Shown piece after piece: positions 519 through 17,985 of a stretch of DNA of 20,376 nt; within the stretch, counting starts at the first letter, position 1; each line of letters begins with the position of its first letter. Origin of the DNA: a virus; IMG/VR virus record IMGVR_UViG_3300025087_000338, positions 1 through 20,376 of that record; one strand, given 5' to 3'. The notes under the pieces are model-generated. The model worked only from the letters and a program-made list of their open reading frames with translations, did no database searches and was not told where the DNA came from. Position numbers and translations under genes: made by a program.

Positions 519-1235
519 TTAAACCTTTCTAATCTTTAATTTTTTAACATCTACTCCTAACGCTTTCGCAACCTCGTCCATAGAGTATTCATTACTCTTA
601 ATGCTCAATTCCTTCTCAACGTCTATTCCACTTATCTCCAGGAATAGTTCATTGTTCCAATTAGGCAATGTTAATGTCTTTCTTCTATCCTCATCACTCG
701 CATTTTTCCAACTCTTCCTGAATGCCTCTTGGTATTCATAGCTTCTTAAATAACCACCAGTTGTCTTGTATGTATCGTGTGCTACTTTCTCTTCATCTGT
801 CATAGCCTCTTCTGGTATCCATTCTGTAATATCAAAGTAGAAATAATTAGGGAACTCTAAATCATCTCGTGCAATATCACAATCCATATTAAATATTCTT
901 ACTTTTGGTCTTACAGTGTTTAAGAATCCAGTATTCCCATCCCCAGTATTCCAATCCCCAGTATTCCCATACCCAGTATTCCCATTCCCAGTATTCCCAT
1001 CCCCAGTATTCCCATTCCCAGTATTCCTATCCCCAGTATTCCCATACCCAGTATTCCAATCCCCAGTATTCCCATCCCCAGTATTCCAATACCCAGTATT
1101 CCTATCCCCAGTATTCCCATCCCCAGTATTCCTATTCCCAGTATTCCCATTCCCAGTATTCCCATCTTCTGATACTGTTTTGATAGTGTCTTTCTTTACA
1201 TACTCAACGCCATCTATCACTATTTCGTTCTTCAT
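519..1235 (-). CDS. NTG-pentapeptide-repeat protein with conserved C-terminal domain
   Basis: This is a 238-residue protein in three parts. Residues 1-23 form a short beta-like N-terminus. Residues 24 to about 105 are about 16 tandem pentapeptides of the form N-T-G-(D/N/Y)-(G/W/R), matching the asparagine/glycine-rich class of pentapeptide repeats (the kind also seen in mycobacterial PPE-MPTR proteins), which are expected to form a right-handed beta-helix. Residues 106-238 are a non-repeat domain rich in aromatics (FPNYFYFDITEW) with a TYKTTGGYL segment and a final helix. From memory, similar repeat-plus-tail proteins occur in phages and prophages, but their function is not established. The gene follows structured leader element A with an AT-rich, SD-less start. 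The repeat is unusually uniform at the DNA level (see the repeat entry). Some pentapeptide-repeat proteins mimic DNA; whether this one does is unknown. Confidence 0.85.
   Translation of the reverse strand: MKNEIVIDGVEYVKKDTIKTVSEDGNTGNGNTGNRNTGDGNTGDRNTGYWNTGDGNTGDWNTGYGNTGDRNTGNGNTGDGNTGNGNTGYGNTGDWNTGDGNTGFLNTVRPKVRIFNMDCDIARDDLEFPNYFYFDITEWIPEEAMTDEEKVAHDTYKTTGGYLRSYEYQEAFRKSWKNASDEDRRKTLTLPNWNNELFLEISGIDVEKELSIKSNEYSMDEVAKALGVDVKKLKIRKV
928..1167. repeat. 16 x 15-bp tandem repeat, no indels
   Basis: Sixteen consecutive units of the plus-strand form CCAGTATTCCNATNC keep perfect 15-bp spacing. Thirteen of the fifteen positions are constant in the first fifteen units. Only the two N positions change, to A, C or T and never G. 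In the gene (minus strand) these are the first bases of two adjacent codons, giving GAT/AAT/TAT (D/N/Y) and GGG/AGG/TGG (G/R/W). The last unit runs into unique sequence. All reading frames through the repeat are open, so ORFs in the other frames here are side effects. Confidence 0.95.
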
Positions 1236-1249
1236 ATTAAATAAAATTA

Positions 1250-1362
1250 TAAATTAAATAGCTAATCCTTAATAACTAACGGTGGAGTGCCCCGACATCA
1301 TGAATGTCTACCGCTTACGGTGTGCACCCGCCTTCACTCCCCCGATAATCATTAAAAGAACT
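1250..1362 (-). ncRNA. structured leader element A (upstream of the NTG-repeat gene)
   Basis: On the minus strand this element has a fixed outer frame and a 66-nt core (1281-1346). The frame is a 31-bp block (1250-1280) and a 16-bp block (1347-1362), both repeated exactly at element B. The two blocks can pair through UUUUAAU with AUUAAGG (two G-U pairs). The core closes with GGAGTG (1284-1289) against CACTCC (1335-1340) and contains the hairpins GACAT/ATGTC (1294-1298 with 1304-1308) and ACCG/CGGT (1310-1313 with 1318-1321), so it looks like a three-way junction. It ends about 15 bases before the ATG of the repeat-protein gene. I cannot assign it to a known RNA class. Confidence 0.6.
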
Positions 1363-1652
1363 TTTAGTACACTATATGAGATACTCTGGGTAGGACTCCA
1401 TCATAGTCAACGTACGATTGCGAATCTTCTTGTTGCTACAAATGTAATTTTCATCTACCTACTTGCTCGGTGTTAGGCGAATATTACAATACGCTTTTTC
1501 CTCCTTCTACAACCTGCCCGTGTAAATACAGTGCATTAAATCTGCCACCAAAGTACCTCATAAAATGTACTATTTAACTTTTTAAGAGCAACTAAAAGAC
1601 TATTCCTTGTTCGCAGGTGGCTCGTGACCATCAACAAACAGGGGGCAGGCTT
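1363..1652. other. intergenic stretch without a convincing gene
   Basis: These 290 bases lie between the gene ending at 1653 and element A. The minus strand holds only very short frames, including a 25-codon frame (MRYFGGRFNALYLHGQVVEG...) and a 15-codon frame (MKITFVATRRFAIVR). Neither has a good SD at its own start, although an AAGGAGGA sits near 1500. No strong hairpin or tRNA is visible. It is probably the transcribed 5' region of element A. Confidence 0.5.
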
Positions 1653-2132
1653 CTATGTACCACTCATATTTGACCTTACTCTACTATCAATCAAGGTCTT
1701 AATCTTGCTCTGAGAGTAATTAATTGTTCTATCCGCGTTCTCATATAAACCTCTTAATTTTCTTGCTTGATAATTAGCCTTAATCTCCATTTGTTTAATC
1801 TCATCACACTCTTTCTCTGCCATAGCCTTCGCCATTCCATCAGTAATCTTGTCTCCATTCTTTAACTCTATATACTTATCTCTAACGCTCGATTTATATT
1901 CTTCGCTTAATGCCTCTGCTTTAGTATAAGCATAGTCTTTTAAGTCCCCTAGATTAAACAAGAGGCTTGAGAGTATCATCATAGAATCTGTTACCTTATC
2001 CATCTGCCAACTCTCCACAGGAGTATCTTCAAAGTATTTTTTAATGTGCAAAATCTTCTCTACAATAGGCATTCCCTCAATACCTTTTTGTATATTATCT
2101 ATATCACTCATAATTTCCATACTGTTTATCAT
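1653..2132 (-). CDS. hypothetical helical protein in the recombination block (159 aa)
   Basis: The product is acidic and almost wholly helical, with heptad-like stretches (for example KAMAEKECDEIKQMEIKANY, residues 103-122) and no cysteine motif or membrane segment. No family is recognised. It sits directly downstream of the NinG-like gene and has its own promoter (2140-2168), whose predicted start is at about 2133, so an mRNA from it would be leaderless at the ATG at 2132. Initiation at in-frame ATGs at codon 5 or 8 (2120 or 2111) is also possible. Position suggests a recombination or replication accessory role; this is inference only. Confidence 0.7.
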   Translation of the reverse strand: MINSMEIMSDIDNIQKGIEGMPIVEKILHIKKYFEDTPVESWQMDKVTDSMMILSSLLFNLGDLKDYAYTKAEALSEEYKSSVRDKYIELKNGDKITDGMAKAMAEKECDEIKQMEIKANYQARKLRGLYENADRTINYSQSKIKTLIDSRVRSNMSGT

Positions 2133-2139
2133 ACTTAGT

Positions 2140-2168
2140 ATATTATCAGTTTATATTCTTTTTGTCAA
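2140..2168 (-). promoter_or_regulatory. sigma70-type promoter, leftward
   Basis: On the minus strand a perfect TTGACA (2163-2168) is followed by a 17-base spacer and TAATAT (2140-2145), preceded by TG one base away (extended -10). The -35 overlaps the 3' end of the NinG-like gene. The predicted transcription start coincides with the ATG of the next gene. Confidence 0.6.
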
Positions 2169-2634
2169 TATCCAAATAGACTTGTAGTAATGAATTGTCC
2201 TTCTTGAGTGCATTAAATCTTGTTCTGAATTCGTCTGACAGTTCCTCTAGTTCTGGCACGGAGAGCTTATCAAGCAGATTAGAAATCTTCTCTTTTTCTT
2301 CAAAGTCTTCCAGGCCATATCTCTTTATATACCAGATATGGTATGCGGGGTAATTTCCATCTCTTCCCCCATATATAGAGCTTTTGTTGCAGTCTTCACA
2401 TTGTCCATTTACCAGGCGAGTGTCAAAGAGTATTGATTCGTTTCTTCCGCCAATGCAATGTCCTGCTTGGGTATGTTTGAACTCATACCTCACACCACAG
2501 CTAACACAATAACACTGGTCTGGTTCTCCTGTCGTGAATAGACAATCTCTCAAACGAATATATTTGCTAAACCAGTCCCAAGTTCTTTTCTTAACTGTAG
2601 TCTTCTTTGGGGCTTTGATTTTTGGTATTTTCAT
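2146..2634 (-). CDS. ninG: NinG/Rap-like recombination endonuclease
   Basis: This 162-residue protein has the layout of lambda NinG (Rap), a structure-specific endonuclease that cuts recombination intermediates. It has a basic N-terminus (residues 1-20), a C43-V-S-C46 pair, a QAGHCIGGRN segment (57-65) containing the conserved histidine, then C79-E-D-C82-N, and a YPAYHIWYIKRYG helix region near 95-107. The C-terminal third is helical. It overlaps the 3' end of the exonuclease gene by 44 bases, an unusually long overlap, so translation is probably coupled; no good later start is present before the basic segment. The neighbours (exonuclease, SSB-like) support a role in phage recombination. The family call is from recognisable motifs and the exact activity is inferred. 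Confidence 0.8.
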   Translation of the reverse strand: MKIPKIKAPKKTTVKKRTWDWFSKYIRLRDCLFTTGEPDQCYCVSCGVRYEFKHTQAGHCIGGRNESILFDTRLVNGQCEDCNKSSIYGGRDGNYPAYHIWYIKRYGLEDFEEKEKISNLLDKLSVPELEELSDEFRTRFNALKKDNSLLQVYLDIDKKNIN

Positions 2635-3238
2635 TGCTGATAGTTCGTAATATTAAATCCTGATTTTCTTTAACCCAATCCATTATCTTCTTATCAAACT
2701 CGACTTCTTCTATTACATAGTCGCCATCGTTCTTAAAAATAATAACGGCGAGTTTCCCTTTCCAATCTGTTGCATTTGCATATAGAGTTAGTTGCCACTT
2801 CGTATGCTTAATCTTTTGGTTGTTTCTTTTGTAGGGCTTTTCGTCGTAAGCACCAAAAGTCTTCCAATCTGCCAACATCTCCTCGCCAGTTGCCTTATTT
2901 CTAACTAATCCATCATATCTACCTGCATAATTCAATTCTTCGCAGATTACTTCTTGTTCCGTGTTTACTAATTCCCAATCTTCTAAAAACTTATTCATTC
3001 CCATGGAGAGGTTGTCCTCTAACTTGTCCATCTGCGGGGCTGATAGCCACTCCAATCTGCGATATACGTTGTCGAGGTACTCTGACACCTTGCTACCTAA
3101 AATACGGCTTGTATTGGTTATGACTTGCGGGTCTTTGCCTACTCTTTGACACCAATTCTCAAAAGCCACCCTGTTGAATGGGTCTTTAAGTTCAATGAGA
3201 GAAGTAACTGATAGATATTTGTCGTAATATATCCTCAT
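2591..3238 (-). CDS. RecB/Cas4-type PD-(D/E)XK exonuclease
   Basis: The 215-residue protein carries the nuclease core in order: E100-E101 before the core strand, G106-R-Y-D109-G, then A123-D124-W-K126-T (the D-X-K catalytic pair) and Q149-L-T-L-Y153, the QxxxY motif typical of the RecB nuclease family. Such phage enzymes resect double-stranded ends to give single strands for annealing recombination. It lies between the SSB-like gene and the NinG-like gene. Its ATG overlaps the TGA of a 17-codon frame as ATGA. No SD is visible, so coupling to that short frame may matter for translation. Confidence 0.85.
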   Translation of the reverse strand: MRIYYDKYLSVTSLIELKDPFNRVAFENWCQRVGKDPQVITNTSRILGSKVSEYLDNVYRRLEWLSAPQMDKLEDNLSMGMNKFLEDWELVNTEQEVICEELNYAGRYDGLVRNKATGEEMLADWKTFGAYDEKPYKRNNQKIKHTKWQLTLYANATDWKGKLAVIIFKNDGDYVIEEVEFDKKIMDWVKENQDLILRTISNENTKNQSPKEDYS

Positions 3239-3288
3239 TCTAAAGGAATTAGAACTAAAATTATTACTATTGCTATTAATGTTCCCAT
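3235..3288 (-). CDS. 17-aa hydrophobic micro-protein candidate
   Basis: An 18-codon frame (MGTLIAIVIILVLIPLE, stop TGA) starts one base after the stop of the SSB-like gene and ends in an ATGA overlap with the exonuclease start. Residues 3-15 are entirely hydrophobic and could span or dip into the membrane. The exact fit between both neighbours is the main evidence; the alternative is that it only serves to carry ribosomes to the exonuclease ATG. It is the only visible gene outside the 7907-9617 block ending in TGA. Confidence 0.45.
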   Translation of the reverse strand: MGTLIAIVIILVLIPLE

Positions 3289-3289
3289 G

Positions 3290-3802
3290 TTAAAATGGGA
3301 GTTCGTCTTCTAGTTCTTCCTCTTGTGTCAAAGTCTTAGCTGGTTCTAATGCCTTTTTACTAAAATCTAGGGCGTCCTTGACCTCTACGGTCTTCGCAAC
3401 GCCATTCCATAGTTCCTTTCGTGGTGTAACTATTCCAAGCTTTTCTTCCACGACCTTTAACCTGTTGTCAAACTCCTTAAAGTCTAGTTCTAACGCTTTT
3501 CTGCCACCCTCTTTAGGGGGAAGTTCAAGGTTAAAGTATTTCCTTCCATTGCTTTCTTTCACAACAATTTTTCCCGTCATAGACATACCGTCAACCCAGC
3601 CATTTGTATTGTCAAAATAATCAAAGTAGGTTACTCTGCCCCGAAAATCTGGGTCATTAATAGTTCGTGGGTTAAAATCTAAATTTACTTTCACATAAGG
3701 AAGTTTCTTTTCTTTCGATAATAACGGGTTACCATTAATATCTTTATAATCCTTATATATTTTGTCTATCGTAACATTGTTTAACTCGTATTCTGTATTC
3801 AT
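3290..3802 (-). CDS. ssb: single-stranded DNA-binding protein-like
   Basis: The 170-residue protein has a beta-rich N-terminal two thirds (residues 1 to about 115: alternating strands such as YVKVNLDF, GRVTYFDYF and KYFNLELP, consistent with an OB fold) and a linker ending in an acidic tip, EEELEDELPF. The DELPF end resembles the DDDIPF tip by which bacterial and phage SSBs recruit partners. It probably coats single-stranded DNA made by the neighbouring exonuclease. The OB-fold assignment rests on strand pattern, tail and context, not on a full family signature; a recombination mediator with an SSB-like tail is the main alternative. Confidence 0.65.
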   Translation of the reverse strand: MNTEYELNNVTIDKIYKDYKDINGNPLLSKEKKLPYVKVNLDFNPRTINDPDFRGRVTYFDYFDNTNGWVDGMSMTGKIVVKESNGRKYFNLELPPKEGGRKALELDFKEFDNRLKVVEEKLGIVTPRKELWNGVAKTVEVKDALDFSKKALEPAKTLTQEEELEDELPF

Positions 3803-3803
3803 A

Positions 3804-4070
3804 CTATTTATTGTTTAACTTAGTTAACTCATCATACTCCTTCTCGAGCGTTCCTATTCTTTTATTGTCCCTCTCTATATCCTCGTCTCTCCAGTCTGTC
3901 TCTTTAACGGCCCACTTGGCATATACGAGTTTTTCTCCTTTATTCCACCCTCGTAATTTTGATTTAAGCTTCTCAGACAAAATGAAATTGGTTGTGTCAT
4001 CTATAGACGGTCGCCCTAAATGTTTCACCACAAAACCTTGATACCTTTCTAAAAGGTCTTCCTTACTCAT
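3804..4070 (-). CDS. hypothetical protein (88 aa)
   Basis: This is a basic, helical small protein with a predicted coiled-coil C-terminus (residues 60-88, EDIERDNKRIGTLEKEYDEL). It contains a GWNKGEKLVYAKWAVKETDW segment that may be the folded core. Its ATG overlaps the end of the 55-aa gene upstream, and its stop lies one base before the SSB-like start, so it belongs to the recombination operon. No family is recognised. Confidence 0.65.
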   Translation of the reverse strand: MSKEDLLERYQGFVVKHLGRPSIDDTTNFILSEKLKSKLRGWNKGEKLVYAKWAVKETDWRDEDIERDNKRIGTLEKEYDELTKLNNK

Positions 4071-4230
4071 TCAATTTTTCTTTTAATAATTTAATGTCTA
4101 TCTTTTCTAATATTTCTTTTGATTCGCTCTCTTTACATGGAATGAAATTGGTTCCTATGCTACAACTGTTACCGAGAGAAGGGTAAATAATTAATCCATT
4201 ATCTGTTTTTATAGATATTATTTTTCTCAT
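4063..4230 (-). CDS. 55-aa hypothetical protein
   Basis: The reading frame starts MRKIISIKTDNGLIIYPSLG and ends in a lysine-rich helix (LLKEKLNE). AAAGGAAA lies upstream at a workable distance. The start is one base from the stop of the preceding gene (4232) and its stop overlaps the next start by 8 bases (AATGAGTAAGG), an arrangement typical of real phage genes. The N-terminal half looks beta-rich. Function unknown. Confidence 0.6.
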   Translation of the reverse strand: MRKIISIKTDNGLIIYPSLGNSCSIGTNFIPCKESESKEILEKIDIKLLKEKLNE

Positions 4231-4231
4231 A

Positions 4232-4609
4232 TTATTTACTTTCCTTTAATAACTTATTTTCTTTTCTTAAATCAATAATCATTTCCTTGGCCTTTGCCAT
4301 TTTTGAGGCGTATTCTGCCTCAATTTCAATTCTTAACTTATCAATATCAGGGTTTCTAGTGTTCTTTAACGCCTCAATCCCCAATTTTATTTCTTCCCCT
4401 CCCTCCATTAACATCTCCTTTATATCGGCCACGAGTTCTTTGATTACCTTTCGTGTCTCTAACCTTACTTCGTCCTTGTCAAGACTATCTCCCCCTATTG
4501 TATAGCTTAGGAATTCTGAAGCCTTCTCCTTTGAGAAAGTATCTTTTGAAAGGGGAATATCATACCCCAATGTGACCTTTATCTCCTCATATCTATTTTG
4601 TATTTCCAT
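4232..4609 (-). CDS. hypothetical coiled-coil protein (125 aa)
   Basis: The first 45 residues (GYDIPLSKDTFSKEKASEFL) look globular. The rest is a long charged helix, with heptads clearest from residue 90 on (KLRIEIEAEYASKMAKAKEM). It is probably an oligomer. A GGAGGA SD lies 6 bases before the ATG. The gene is first in the tight run 4609-2146 leading through the SSB-like, exonuclease and NinG-like genes. It could be a recombination or annealing partner, but no annealase motif is seen. Confidence 0.65.
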   Translation of the reverse strand: MEIQNRYEEIKVTLGYDIPLSKDTFSKEKASEFLSYTIGGDSLDKDEVRLETRKVIKELVADIKEMLMEGGEEIKLGIEALKNTRNPDIDKLRIEIEAEYASKMAKAKEMIIDLRKENKLLKESK

Positions 4610-4629
4610 TTTGTCCTCCGTGTCAAATA

Positions 4630-4890
4630 TTAATATATATCCATTTCATCAGCACATCTATTGCAGATATGCCCTGTTCCATAATCAATGGAAACAGCAT
4701 CATTCTCATCGACTATGATTCCACATCTATAACATTGCACGGTTTTGATATCGTCCTCATCATCAAAAAGGATAGGTGGCGTGTCTATGTCCTCACACTC
4801 TATGTCCGACCATATACCGTCCTCCCACTTTCCGACGCCACTTCTAACTCCATTTTCATCAAATCCCTCTGGAATATTGTTGTTGTTCAT
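4630..4890 (-). CDS. acidic zinc-ribbon protein (86 aa)
   Basis: Residues 1-50 are very acidic (DIECEDIDTPPILFDDEDD). Residues 53-79 hold two CxxC pairs, C53-Y-R-C56-G and C76-N-R-C79, spaced like a classical zinc ribbon. A highly acidic N-terminal tail joined to a small zinc ribbon suits a protein-binding adaptor more than a DNA-binder; this is inference. It lies directly behind structured leader element B, which shares its frame with the element before the NTG-repeat gene. There is no SD; the leader is AT-rich. Confidence 0.7.
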   Translation of the reverse strand: MNNNNIPEGFDENGVRSGVGKWEDGIWSDIECEDIDTPPILFDDEDDIKTVQCYRCGIIVDENDAVSIDYGTGHICNRCADEMDIY

Positions 4891-4905
4891 TTGCAGTTTT
4901 TATAT

Positions 4906-5112
4906 TAAATTAAATAGCTAATCCTTAATAACTAACACCAACCTAGCACAATACTGTTCCTGTATTATGCCAAGTGAACTAGGTAATTACTCCTAGTTGA
5001 GAAGTTGGGCACCGCCTGTATCTCCGCTTCGGTCTTCTCATGGACTCTCAATTCCACATTGCTCGTAAGCTAACGAGGTGCGTACAGATTGGTGTCAATC
5101 ATTAAAAGAACT
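4906..5112 (-). ncRNA. structured leader element B (upstream of the zinc-ribbon gene)
   Basis: This element has the same outer frame as element A: identical 31-bp (4906-4936) and 16-bp (5097-5112) blocks that can pair with each other (4923-4929 with 5101-5107). The 160-nt core is unrelated in sequence to core A. It is closed by a 10-bp helix (4934-4943 with 5087-5096, two G-U pairs) and holds four further helices: CTCGT/ACGAG (5062-5066, 5073-5077), a 7-bp perfect stem (4998-5004, 5034-5040), a 7-bp perfect stem (4977-4983, 4992-4998; it shares base 4998 with the previous one), and a 9-bp stem with one G-U (4946-4954, 4962-4970). The result is a compact multi-helix junction ending 16 bases before an ATG. 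It matches no RNA class I can name. Confidence 0.65.
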
Positions 5113-5114
5113 CC

Positions 5115-5264
5115 CTACTCCACAAAATTGGTTTCATAACCAGTTTCAGTCATAAATCTATCACACTCCATCTTAGCCATATATTTGACGATAGAGTTTA
5201 CACCTAAAATTATAATTGCAATGGAGGCACATACAGCAACAATAAAATTCCAAAAATCGTTCAT
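5115..5264 (-). CDS. 49-aa single-span membrane protein
   Basis: The frame begins MNDFWNFIVAVCASIAIIIL; residues 4-26 form a clear transmembrane helix, followed by a charged, probably cytoplasmic tail (KYMAKMECDRFMTETGYETN). It ends three bases before element B. The leader carries an 18-base sequence (5269-5286) identical to the one before the zinc-finger gene at 11762, which supports the start. Tiny membrane proteins of this type are common in phage early regions, but the role is unknown. Confidence 0.65.
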   Translation of the reverse strand: MNDFWNFIVAVCASIAIIILGVNSIVKYMAKMECDRFMTETGYETNFVE

Positions 5265-5737
5265 TCTTCTACTTAATAAAATTATTTACAGTTGCTACTG
5301 CTCCAATGGAATTATGATTCTCACTAGCAGTACGGCATTGCATAACTCAAGCCCACAACCTGTCCTCAACCGTGGGCAAACATATTTCATAGTGGTACGG
5401 GCTAGAATCCGTCTTGGTTTACCATAGCCACTACACAAGCGTGTAATGGGTACTCTATCCTGTTTTCTACTCTAAACTAACCACTACTAATCAAATACAT
5501 TGGTCGGGGTGCTACCCTATATAGTCAGTATAGTTTAACTTTTAGTGCGTATTACAGATGGTGTTGACCAGTATCTCCCATATCAGCAACAAACACTTTC
5601 ACCCCAGTCAATATATTTGATTTTATTGTGTGAACAGGGCTTCTATACGGCATAACTGACGAGCAGTATCGTTTTTCCGATATTTCTACCCTGTTCATTT
5701 CCTAAGTTAAAGAGCTACATTACCTTCCCTATCTTAC
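5265..5737 (-). ncRNA. candidate long structured RNA or leader transcript
   Basis: About 470 bases downstream of a consensus leftward promoter lack a convincing gene but are rich in stems on the minus strand. There is a perfect 9-bp stem (5631-5639 with 5689-5697) enclosing a 5-bp hairpin (5667-5671, 5678-5682). There is also a 9-bp stem with tetraloop and one G-U (5428-5436, 5441-5449), a 6-bp GCCCAC/GTGGGC stem (5351-5356, 5372-5377), and a perfect 7-bp stem (5296-5302, 5326-5332) around a 4-bp hairpin. No tRNA is seen. Competing explanation: two short frames exist here, 49 codons from the ATG inside the 9-bp stem and 31 codons ending near 5299. It may be a stand-alone RNA or the leader of the downstream genes. 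Confidence 0.5.
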
Positions 5738-5743
5738 AATTGC

Positions 5744-5772
5744 ATTATAGCATTTCATTGACATTGTTACAA
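5744..5772 (-). promoter_or_regulatory. sigma70-type promoter with extended -10, leftward
   Basis: On the minus strand TTGTAA (5767-5772), a 17-base spacer and a perfect TATAAT (5744-5749) preceded by TGC. The expected start is near 5737, which leads into non-coding structured sequence rather than directly into a gene. Confidence 0.7.
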
Positions 5773-5790
5773 TAAAGCAATAATAAATTA

Positions 5791-7251: not shown

Positions 7252-7850
7252 ATAGTTATATCGTACGTTAGAGGGGTTGTTAGGGCTTCGCCTAATGTTG
7301 ATATATCGGGCTTTGTTGAATAGGTTGTGCTGCTACTCGCCGATTAGTACCCTGCTACATATTAGCCTACTCTTACATATGAGGACATATAGCGTATACA
7401 ACCAACAGGCTTTCAGGGTGTAAATCCTGCTCGTTTACTATTCCCGCCGAGTTTACCCCGCTCCCTGTTTATCTACTAACAATCATTATAGAGAGTTGTA
7501 GTGTGTTCGTTACCATAGGTTGTACAGGTTACCAGTTGTATATCATCTTACGAATCCGCCGAATAGTTCCTTAAACCGCCACAATTAGCCAATAAACGGC
7601 TCTAGAGATACTAGAATAAGCCCGAATATATACCCTGCTTACTGATACGAGTTAGCATAAAGTATAGTACCCGCCTACCAGGTGGCCCGCCCCGCCTGTA
7701 GGTGACCAATAGGGGGTAGGGGTGGAACTCATAGGAGGTAGGGGGCCTGAAAATGACGGTGTAGTAAAAGAAAGAAGGGGGTACCCCTCACTCCCAAATA
7801 TATGGAAAGGTAGAAACGCACAAAGGTAGCCCCAGATAGCTGCAGTAAGT
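7252..7850. other. divergent intergenic region, G-rich tracts and hairpins
   Basis: About 600 bases between the leftward and rightward units hold no convincing gene. Visible features are: a TTAGG/CCTAA hairpin at 7279-7294; CGCCGA at 7338-7343, 7445-7450 and 7557-7562 (plus 7212-7217 just outside); an 11-bp hairpin at 7674-7702; a G-rich plus strand at about 7711-7785 with runs of four to five G; and a GGGGTACCCC palindrome at 7778-7787. A 14-base sequence at 7475-7488 equals the joined flanks of leader elements A and B. Such regions often hold control sites or an origin; neither can be shown here. Confidence 0.5.
7674..7702. other. stable GC-rich stem-loop
   Basis: CCTACCAGGTGG pairs with CCGCCTGTAGG across a six-base loop: eleven base pairs with one bulged C and one G-U (on the plus strand). 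There is no T-run on either side, so it is not a standard intrinsic terminator. It may be an RNA structure or a protein-binding site between the divergent units. Confidence 0.5.
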
Positions 7851-15301: not shown

Positions 15302-15490
15302 ATGGATAAGAAACAAGAAGCAAAATTCGAAGAGATTTATGTGAAATTCATAAAGAAATGCTTGAAGGATAACATAATGCCAAGCCCTGTAATAGTATAC
15401 GGGCCACAGGGAATATTCCCTAAGATTGATTTTACAACAGTGACCGATGAGATAAAGACCGAGATACTTAGCTCTTTAGATAAGAAGTAG
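15302..15490 (+). CDS. hypothetical protein (62 aa)
   Basis: The N-terminal helix (KKQEAKFEEIYVKFIKKCL) is followed by a short beta hairpin-like part (PSPVIVYGPQGIFPKIDFT) and a C-terminal helix. No family is recognised. It is packed between the previous gene and the scaffold in the head operon. Confidence 0.6.
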   Translation: MDKKQEAKFEEIYVKFIKKCLKDNIMPSPVIVYGPQGIFPKIDFTTVTDEIKTEILSSLDKK

Positions 15491-15516: not shown

Positions 15517-16344
15517 ATGGACGAAGAGAATAAAGTGGTTCAAACCACAACCTCTCCTACACCTGAGACGGAACCTATAGTTCCTGAGGTAGAGGAGAAT
15601 GTTGAAGGAAGCGATACCGATACCCAGCCAACCAGCGAGGCTGACGTAGTACAAGAGGAATCTGGTGAGGAGACAGTCGATACGCCTGTTTCTAATTGGG
15701 AAAATGATAAGAAGGCGATGTCAGGGAAAATAAGTAGTTTGGAGAAAGAACGAAATGAGTATCAACAAAAGGCGAGATTGCTAGAGGCACTTGATAGTGC
15801 AGCTGCAAACGACCCTGAGTTTATGAGGATAGCAAACAAGAAGTTAGTAGAACAAGGATTGCTTGACGAGTCAGTGTTACAGGAATTTGAGCAGACAGTG
15901 CCCCAGAAAACTGACGGTACAACCCAAAACCCTGCAATATTATGGGCTCAGCAACAAATGCAGAACGAAAAGAATAAAAGAGAGGAGTTTTTCAAAAGTT
16001 TTGAGGAACGACACTCTGACCTAACAGAAGGTAGTCCTGAAATAGTCCGAGCAAACCGAAATGCAATTGGTGCAGCGGCAGCGAGAATTATGGCAAAGGA
16101 CAATGTTTCTGAAGGGGATGCTTACGAACATGCATACAAACTTATAATGAACCCAAATCAATTAATTGAGGACGGTAAGTTACAGGGGATTGCACAAGCA
16201 CAATCTGGTTTACCTTCTGAAGGAGCGGCCTCGGGCGGAGTAGCGAAGTCTTCGGGTGGAGTAATATTAACACCTGAACAAAAAGATGTAGCAAAACGTT
16301 TTGGCATGACAGAAGAAAAATATGCACAAAGTTTAGAGGAGTAA
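15517..16344 (+). CDS. capsid scaffolding protein (putative)
   Basis: The 275-residue protein has an acidic, disordered N-terminus (residues 1-60, rich in E, T, P), a coiled-coil stretch (KKAMSGKISSLEKERNEYQQ, residues 65-84) and a helical remainder with a glycine/serine-rich segment (GAASGGVAKSSGG) before a final helix. That composition and its position directly before the decoration and capsid genes fit a scaffold, which fills the prohead and is removed before packaging. No protease motif is visible, so release rather than cleavage is possible. The call is by context and composition. Confidence 0.75.
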   Translation: MDEENKVVQTTTSPTPETEPIVPEVEENVEGSDTDTQPTSEADVVQEESGEETVDTPVSNWENDKKAMSGKISSLEKERNEYQQKARLLEALDSAAANDPEFMRIANKKLVEQGLLDESVLQEFEQTVPQKTDGTTQNPAILWAQQQMQNEKNKREEFFKSFEERHSDLTEGSPEIVRANRNAIGAAAARIMAKDNVSEGDAYEHAYKLIMNPNQLIEDGKLQGIAQAQSGLPSEGAASGGVAKSSGGVILTPEQKDVAKRFGMTEEKYAQSLEE

Positions 16345-17854: not shown

Positions 17855-17875
17855 TTTTGATTTAGCTCTTTAATT

Positions 17876-17950
17876 TCTGATAATAATCAGACGAGTGGTG
17901 GGCGTAACCCACTCGTTAACAATCCGTTGGACACGTTACGATAAGACGTG
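17876..17950 (+). other. cluster of three hairpins after the capsid gene
   Basis: Three stems follow in 75 bases: TCTGAT/ATCAGA (17876-17891), an 8-bp ACGAGTGG/CCACTCGT stem (17891-17916) and CACGT/ACGTG (17932-17950). None has a T-run directly after it, so a classic intrinsic terminator is not supported. They may partly stop transcription or protect the capsid mRNA 3' end, or act in the leader of the next gene. Confidence 0.55.
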
Positions 17951-17985
17951 GTAAATATTAGGATTAATTTTAGGAAACAAACAAA

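Follow-up and report, generated by a model that had tools for sequence, protein, structure and literature searches.

The window analysed here, i.e. the whole 20,376-nucleotide (nt) stretch of IMG/VR record IMGVR_UViG_3300025087_000338, is part of an uncultivated phage and carries, in its leftward early operon, a series of structured non-coding units that are read on the minus strand, in the direction of the neighbouring genes. Two of these units, elements A and B, have identical ends around different cores; they are accompanied by units D and C, and all four begin with a word that resembles boxA, the NusB/S10 antitermination signal of ribosomal RNA (rRNA) leaders and lambdoid nut sites. Antitermination by boxA has been described in rRNA, in the early operons of lambdoid phages and at a small number of host genes. 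A second contig of 38.5 kilobases (kb) is identical to the window across the 5.8 kb compared and extends its sequence rightward. Relatives were gathered with portal, small-protein and anchor-gene searches (the anchor gene being that downstream of B); they have structural genes in common with the window phage and portal identities of 55-74%, and three of them cover the early region, namely L010/L027 (one virus), L030/L014 and L074, the last being distant from the window phage (capsid 25% identical). The units of the window are as follows.

Element A: 1250..1362, minus strand; boxA-like head at 1362-1347 (AGTTCTTTTAATGATT), core at 1346-1281 and 3' flank at 1280-1250 (GTTAGTTATTAAGGATTAGCTATTTAATTTA), defined by the exact repeat with B and by its fold z-score.
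Element B: 4906..5112, minus strand; the head (5112-5097) and 3' flank (4936-4906) of A around a multibranched core (5096-4937), defined in the same way.
Unit D: 1366..1589, minus strand; boxA-like GCTCTTAAAAA (1589-1579) in front of a long stem, GGTACTTTGG/CCAGAGTATC, which closes around a variable interior.
Unit C: 5290..5716, minus strand; boxA-like AGCTCTTTAAC (5716-5706), then several folded domains (fold z -4.24), with a homologue in L010.

Elements A and B are direct repeats at both ends, positions 1250-1280 being identical to 4906-4936 (31/31) and 1347-1362 to 5097-5112 (16/16), and the cores of 66 and 160 nt that these ends enclose have no detectable similarity, exactly as an initial annotation of this DNA had described. 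In the transcript the 16-nt side comes first and the 31-nt side last, and the 5' flank, AGTTCTTTTAA, resembles boxA. A 20-nt part of the long flank finds no further match in the window at up to three mismatches (0 of 100 shuffles match), and exact copies of the frame number only two in the 38.5-kb contig. Folded in the leftward direction, A and B give z-scores of -2.95 and -4.26, against a mean of -0.17 for ten 200-nt coding controls from the same strand and arm, so that the earlier description of the cores as well paired is borne out. Head and 3' flank pair mutually, placing the boxA-like word inside the closing stem of both elements, and the closing helix extends into the core through sequences that differ between A and B; the terminal core helix of B, of 9 base pairs (bp), was reached in 10 of 3000 shuffles. 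Both elements sit 14-15 nt ahead of leftward start codons (1235 and 4890), a position with which their original label of leader RNAs standing just before genes agrees. The 3' flank doubles as a gene-leader motif, a close version of it standing alone ahead of a gene of L074 (6444), and the distance from the ATTAAG word to the ATG is 38-39 nt in A, B and unit U3 of L074, and 34 nt at L074 6444. This second use of the 3' flank had been missed, as had the identity of the 5' flank as a recurrent boxA-like signal heading units; nor are A and B an isolated pair, D lying within the range that the initial annotation considered and C just beyond it.

The heads were compared with the consensus (T)G(C/T)TCTTT(A/G)A, which is general knowledge; a host search with two conserved phage proteins found no match in 84,980 bacterial and archaeal genomes. 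In sense orientation, words of this kind are found in A and B (GTTCTTTTAA), C (GCTCTTTAAC) and D (GCTCTTAAAAA), and in the copies of L030, L010 and L074. Sense boxA-like words in early non-coding DNA number 4 in the window against 0.05 expected, and 6 in L030 against 0.09, with 0 in antisense. Because the pattern behind these counts was chosen after reading the sequences, a ranking of all 8-mers was run to remove the bias. Across 4.3 kb of early non-coding DNA from four phages, AGTTCTTT is the most enriched 8-mer on the sense strand (8 against 0.1 expected; antisense 0), and TTATTAAG, a word of the frame's 3' flank, also ranks high (5 against 0.4 expected). L077, a more distant phage, has the anchor gene and no AGYTCTTTRA within its 49 kb. 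Outside the early region the window holds one further site.

GCTCTTTA: 15471..15478, plus strand; lies ahead of the gene at 15517 and runs straight into a AAGNAGTAG-type leader, with no core.

This word stands ahead of the late-operon gene at 15517 in 13 of 13 phages (the window and the 12 relatives inspected), and is also kept in 4 relatives where the open reading frame (ORF) that overlaps it elsewhere went undetected; this retention, independently of the early units, indicates a function for the boxA-like word in these phages. In the gap after the capsid gene (17855-17985, plus strand), GCTCTTTAATTTC is followed by two hairpins, and the word was not found there in relatives. Repeated words of another type, e.g. 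GAGCAGGGTATCAATCGG, lie in the divergent early region of L010 (2280-2620) and L030 (4390-4700), with similar words at 7270-7640 of the window, and are possibly operators.

The A/B frame recurs in the relatives with other fillings. In L074, three units stand in a row in one non-coding stretch, namely a boxA-headed RNA, a homologue of D and U3, the last being the A/B frame around a third core, closed by 18 bp; the order of D followed by an A-type unit is common to the window and L074, with A holding U3's position after D. In L010/L027, the D RNA itself lies inside the A/B frame (in L010, AGTTCTTTAAT...ATTAAGG..AG.TATTTAAT). The frame can be aligned across A, B, L074 U3 and L010 D, and has at least four different fillings across three phage lineages, the cores ranging from ~65 to 208 nt and having nothing in common apart from the D family. 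A 1.1-kb non-coding stretch of L030 accommodates a tandem series of five boxA-headed units, uninterrupted by genes, and the window phage has a fifth unit, GCTCTTAAAAATTTAATACACCAG...CTGGTGTATT, where the longer contig ends on the right (L072 18726). Closing helices measure 18 bp in L074 U3, 16 in L074 D, 15 in L010 D, 14 in L030 U3, 11 in the L072 unit and 9 in B, lengths attained in 0-10 of 3000 shuffles. The fixed closing stem with exchangeable cores that had initially been suggested is supported, and strengthened by the third core of L074 and the L010/L027 frame around D. Also near the right end of that contig (L072 18440-18575), another ORF is followed directly, as judged by eye, by the 3' end of what looks like an anaerobic ribonucleotide reductase gene, which suggests an interrupted gene.

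These comparisons bear on whether A and B might be a local duplication that then decayed, without function. The existence of only two exact copies would suit such an origin, and the identity of the frame fits recent duplication or conversion; however, the cores have been replaced rather than decayed, the stems are maintained, and the frame and D are kept in distant phages; such conservation of frame and stems across phages is the outcome that would refute this explanation. We consider it scarcely credible.

Element B is absent upstream of the homologue of the anchor gene (4630-4890) in L010, L030 and L074, and because it is missing at the homologous gene in all three relatives, B is probably a newer gain than A. 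This absence at the orthologous place, together with identical, mutually pairing ends, is what would be expected of structured mobile inserts, similar to introns or to miniature inverted-repeat transposable elements (MITEs), with shared ends and insertion at a target. The corresponding proposal of the initial annotation, an element inserting at the flank sequence, is weakly supported and seems to us very improbable, since the halves of the frame occur apart (boxA-like word and leader, with no core, before the gene at 15517; the 3' flank alone at L074 6444), only two exact copies exist in 38.5 kb, no target-site duplication was found, and Rfam returned no intron match. Furthermore, a 16-nt piece of the long flank is present in 25 other IMG/VR contigs, none with an element or a second flank of such kind, and these matches were taken as chance. 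Derivation from a MITE or insertion sequence was rejected on the copy number, the separate frame halves and the Pfam-scanned window genes, none of which is a transposase gene. Separately, the terminase gene, intact in the window, is interrupted in relatives by ~850-1200-bp inserts (L011 3291-4159, L016 4375-5276, L017 4373-5217, L019 645-1546 and L009 211-1407) that have no Rfam intron match and are likely introns or inteins with endonuclease genes.

Conservation of structure is seen in both D and C. In each of four phages (window, L010, L030 and L074) a boxA-like head precedes D, and the 15 pairs of its closing stem are 100% paired in all four with 2 double changes, a result equalled in 55 of 500 shuffles with only four sequences available. 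In the window, D occupies the non-coding gap ahead of A, which it directly abuts, its closing helix ending where A starts, and its fold z-score is -2.94. Within C, a second conserved structure was recognised.

Cloverleaf in C: 5390..5486, minus strand; tRNA-shaped, with acceptor TAGTGGT/ACCACTA, TA linker, D-like arm and T-like arm, the anticodon-arm region being replaced by 49 nt.

For its alignment the variable anticodon-arm region was cut out beforehand, leaving three arms that had been picked by eye. In the four phages all 16 pairs are formed (100%), with compensatory changes at 7 of the 16, a level reached in 0 of 500 shuffles; the geometry of three arms is present in each, and the full cloverleaf appears within the minimum-energy fold of L030 U1. 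A D-like-arm pattern, tolerant at six positions, matched only the window phage, L010/L027 and L030 in the whole of IMG/VR, L074 being one base off. Neither ARAGORN nor the Rfam transfer RNA (tRNA) model detects a tRNA in the cloverleaf or the units, and membership of the tRNA family was accordingly rejected. At the Rfam gathering threshold (group I/II introns, ROOL, GOLLD and riboswitches included), the window and its relatives gave no family, two ordinary tRNAs excepted, in keeping with the original statement that no described family has this layout, and riboswitch and intron membership were rejected on this basis. A permissive Rfam search of 1236-5790 returned chance-level matches only, and BLAST of A+D and B+C queries against cultured phages gave no real match (33-nt Lak-phage matches at E = 0.3). 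In U4 of L030 (671-1037, minus strand), two stretches look like tRNAs, with canonical T-arms (GTAGG TTCGAAT CCTAC; TTCGATT) and large inserts, although they score as neither tRNA nor transfer-messenger RNA.

The genes and signals around the units of the early operon are as follows.

Promoter: 5744..5772, minus strand; sigma70-type promoter of the leftward operon, TTGTAA-N17-TATAAT, read from the sequence.
ORF between C and B: 5115..5264, minus strand; 49 amino acids, read from the sequence.
Anchor gene, downstream of B: 4630..4890, minus strand; 86 amino acids with C-x2-C motifs, kept in relatives.
Gene downstream of A: 519..1235, minus strand; Pentapeptide_2 repeat protein (Pfam, 2.6e-19).

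Unit C occupies the non-coding gap upstream of B, its head AGCTCTTTAAC lying ~30 nt after the promoter, and L010 has a similar promoter, TTGTAA-N17-TATTAT, ahead of its C. B begins 2 nt past the stop of the 49-residue ORF, whose product is probably a small membrane protein. Directly behind A (920-1165), 15-bp DNA repeats encode the pentapeptide-repeat protein.

Given this arrangement, the units might be cis-regulatory leaders of a riboswitch or translational type, in which a common frame would provide the expression platform and the core would do the sensing. Such a role would be consistent with their position ahead of start codons, their strong folds and the resemblance of the 3' flank to gene leaders elsewhere in the phage group (L074 6444). 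However, the genes behind A and B are unrelated, in three relatives the homologue of the gene behind B has no B ahead of it, not all of D and the tandem units adjoin a gene, and neither a terminator nor a ribosome-site switch was seen; we therefore consider this explanation improbable. A more serious rival, which we nonetheless regard as unlikely, is that of cis-acting antitermination relays, each unit being a nut- or put-like site that reloads the complex before the next gene, with a core that is structural or binds a phage factor. Relays would explain the boxA-like heads, the units directly before genes with their spacing of 38-39 nt from ATTAAG to ATG in A, B and L074 U3, and the presence of C after the operon promoter, where nutL would be. 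In contrast, they do not account for five consecutive units in L030 with no genes between, nor for cores so different in length that, the D family aside, have nothing in common, and no conserved boxB hairpin of the lambdoid nut type was found, the post-head helices varying in length and sequence between units.

We favour a different explanation, although we judge it about equally likely to hold or to fail: that A and B represent a single cassette design in two copies, built from a boxA-like head, a closing helix and a structured core that can be exchanged, and that they specify Nus-protected RNAs. With variations, this design serves at least five non-coding RNAs, four of them (C, B, D and A) in the leftward early operon and one at the right end. 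The shared frame, the closing helices, the sense-only enrichment of the head word, the recurrence with other cores and the conservation of D and of the cloverleaf are direct observations on which this proposal draws. RNA polymerase would transcribe the head, to which host NusB-S10 would bind, making the elongation complex resistant to Rho, which an untranslated structured RNA would otherwise attract. The core would then fold, and the emerging 3' flank would pair with the head, closing the RNA in the manner of the leader-trailer helix of pre-16S rRNA and taking the boxA-like word away from NusB. The closed unit would persist as a structured RNA, possibly after excision by a double-strand RNase, and might act in trans, whilst the 3' flank would serve as the leader of the next gene and recombination would swap cores between frames. 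RNA products are favoured over leaders of particular genes because of the tandem units of L030, which suit such products better than regulators of one gene, and because the genes behind A and B are unrelated.

Several observations weigh against this proposal. In A, B and L010 D, the closing stem contains the boxA-like word, which transcription would therefore leave free for a short time only, and its conservation may be due to pairing instead of NusB binding. Relative to the consensus, the heads of A and B hold one extra T and that of D is one T short, and their likeness to boxA was judged on this general consensus and not on the rRNA boxA of the host. The terminal core helix of A alone (6 bp, 230 of 3000 shuffles) is not significant; L030 U2, U4 and U5 and L010 C fold not clearly better than shuffles (z +0.2 to -1.7); and no boxA-like word precedes the cloverleaf leader of L074. 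L010 encodes an RtcB RNA ligase (2830-4017; Pfam, 1.5e-117) beside a tRNA-Pro gene (4114-4187). RNA ligation or repair, which this gene might suggest, was left out of the explanation, none being seen among the scanned window genes.

The units may, as we tentatively suggest and hold somewhat less likely than not, form a new class of modular phage RNAs, in which a standard frame is loaded with different structured RNAs that are antitermination-protected products, one of them tRNA-shaped. In such a class the head would double as one strand of the closing helix, and the 3' flank as the leader of the next gene. boxA, the leader-trailer helix and phage non-coding RNAs are already known; the combination is a frame with exchangeable cores, for which we found no precedent among open-licence papers and which has a fair chance of meriting a separate class. 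Were a whole set of structured RNAs in one phage group headed by boxA, phage non-coding RNAs would be connected with the machinery that transcribes rRNA, and the boxA-like word plus closing stem would provide a simple sequence handle for such RNAs in uncultivated phages. The swapping of whole cores inside a fixed frame would, in addition, show modular RNA evolution directly, and could be traced through further genomes.

Amongst known systems, the phage ROOL and GOLLD RNAs (PMC12286853) are similarly structured, non-coding and of unknown function, but the window units are much smaller, match no Rfam family, and have a modular frame headed by boxA-like words. The cloverleaf of C resembles tRNAs, including those of phage tRNA arrays, in its 7-bp acceptor, 2-nt linker, 4-bp D-like arm and 5-bp T-like arm, the loop of the latter being 7 nt in 3 of 4 phages, and differs from them in going undetected as a tRNA, in lacking CCA and in having 49 nt for the anticodon-arm region (window and L010). 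Like lambdoid nut sites, the units place a boxA-like word and hairpins after the promoter of a phage early operon; unlike them, they occur several to an operon and have large, variable cores, and no N protein was identified, although no search aimed at short arginine-rich proteins was made. The boxA of rRNA operons brings in Nus factors, which allow polymerase to continue along RNA that is not translated, and a long helix forms between leader and trailer (PMC10250234). The phage units share with this leader a boxA-type word followed by structured RNA that a long leader-trailer helix appears to close, and differ in being phage-borne, with cores that are exchangeable and not rRNA; the boxA-like word lies inside the helix in A, B and L010 D, whilst in the rRNA of Enterobacteriaceae 18-19 nt separate boxA from boxC, the downstream one of the two and a component of the helix (PMC10250234). 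Finally, boxA also works outside rRNA, for example at suhB, where it represses the gene (PMC5725501); the phage units would share this use outside rRNA, but it is structured RNAs that their boxA-like words head.

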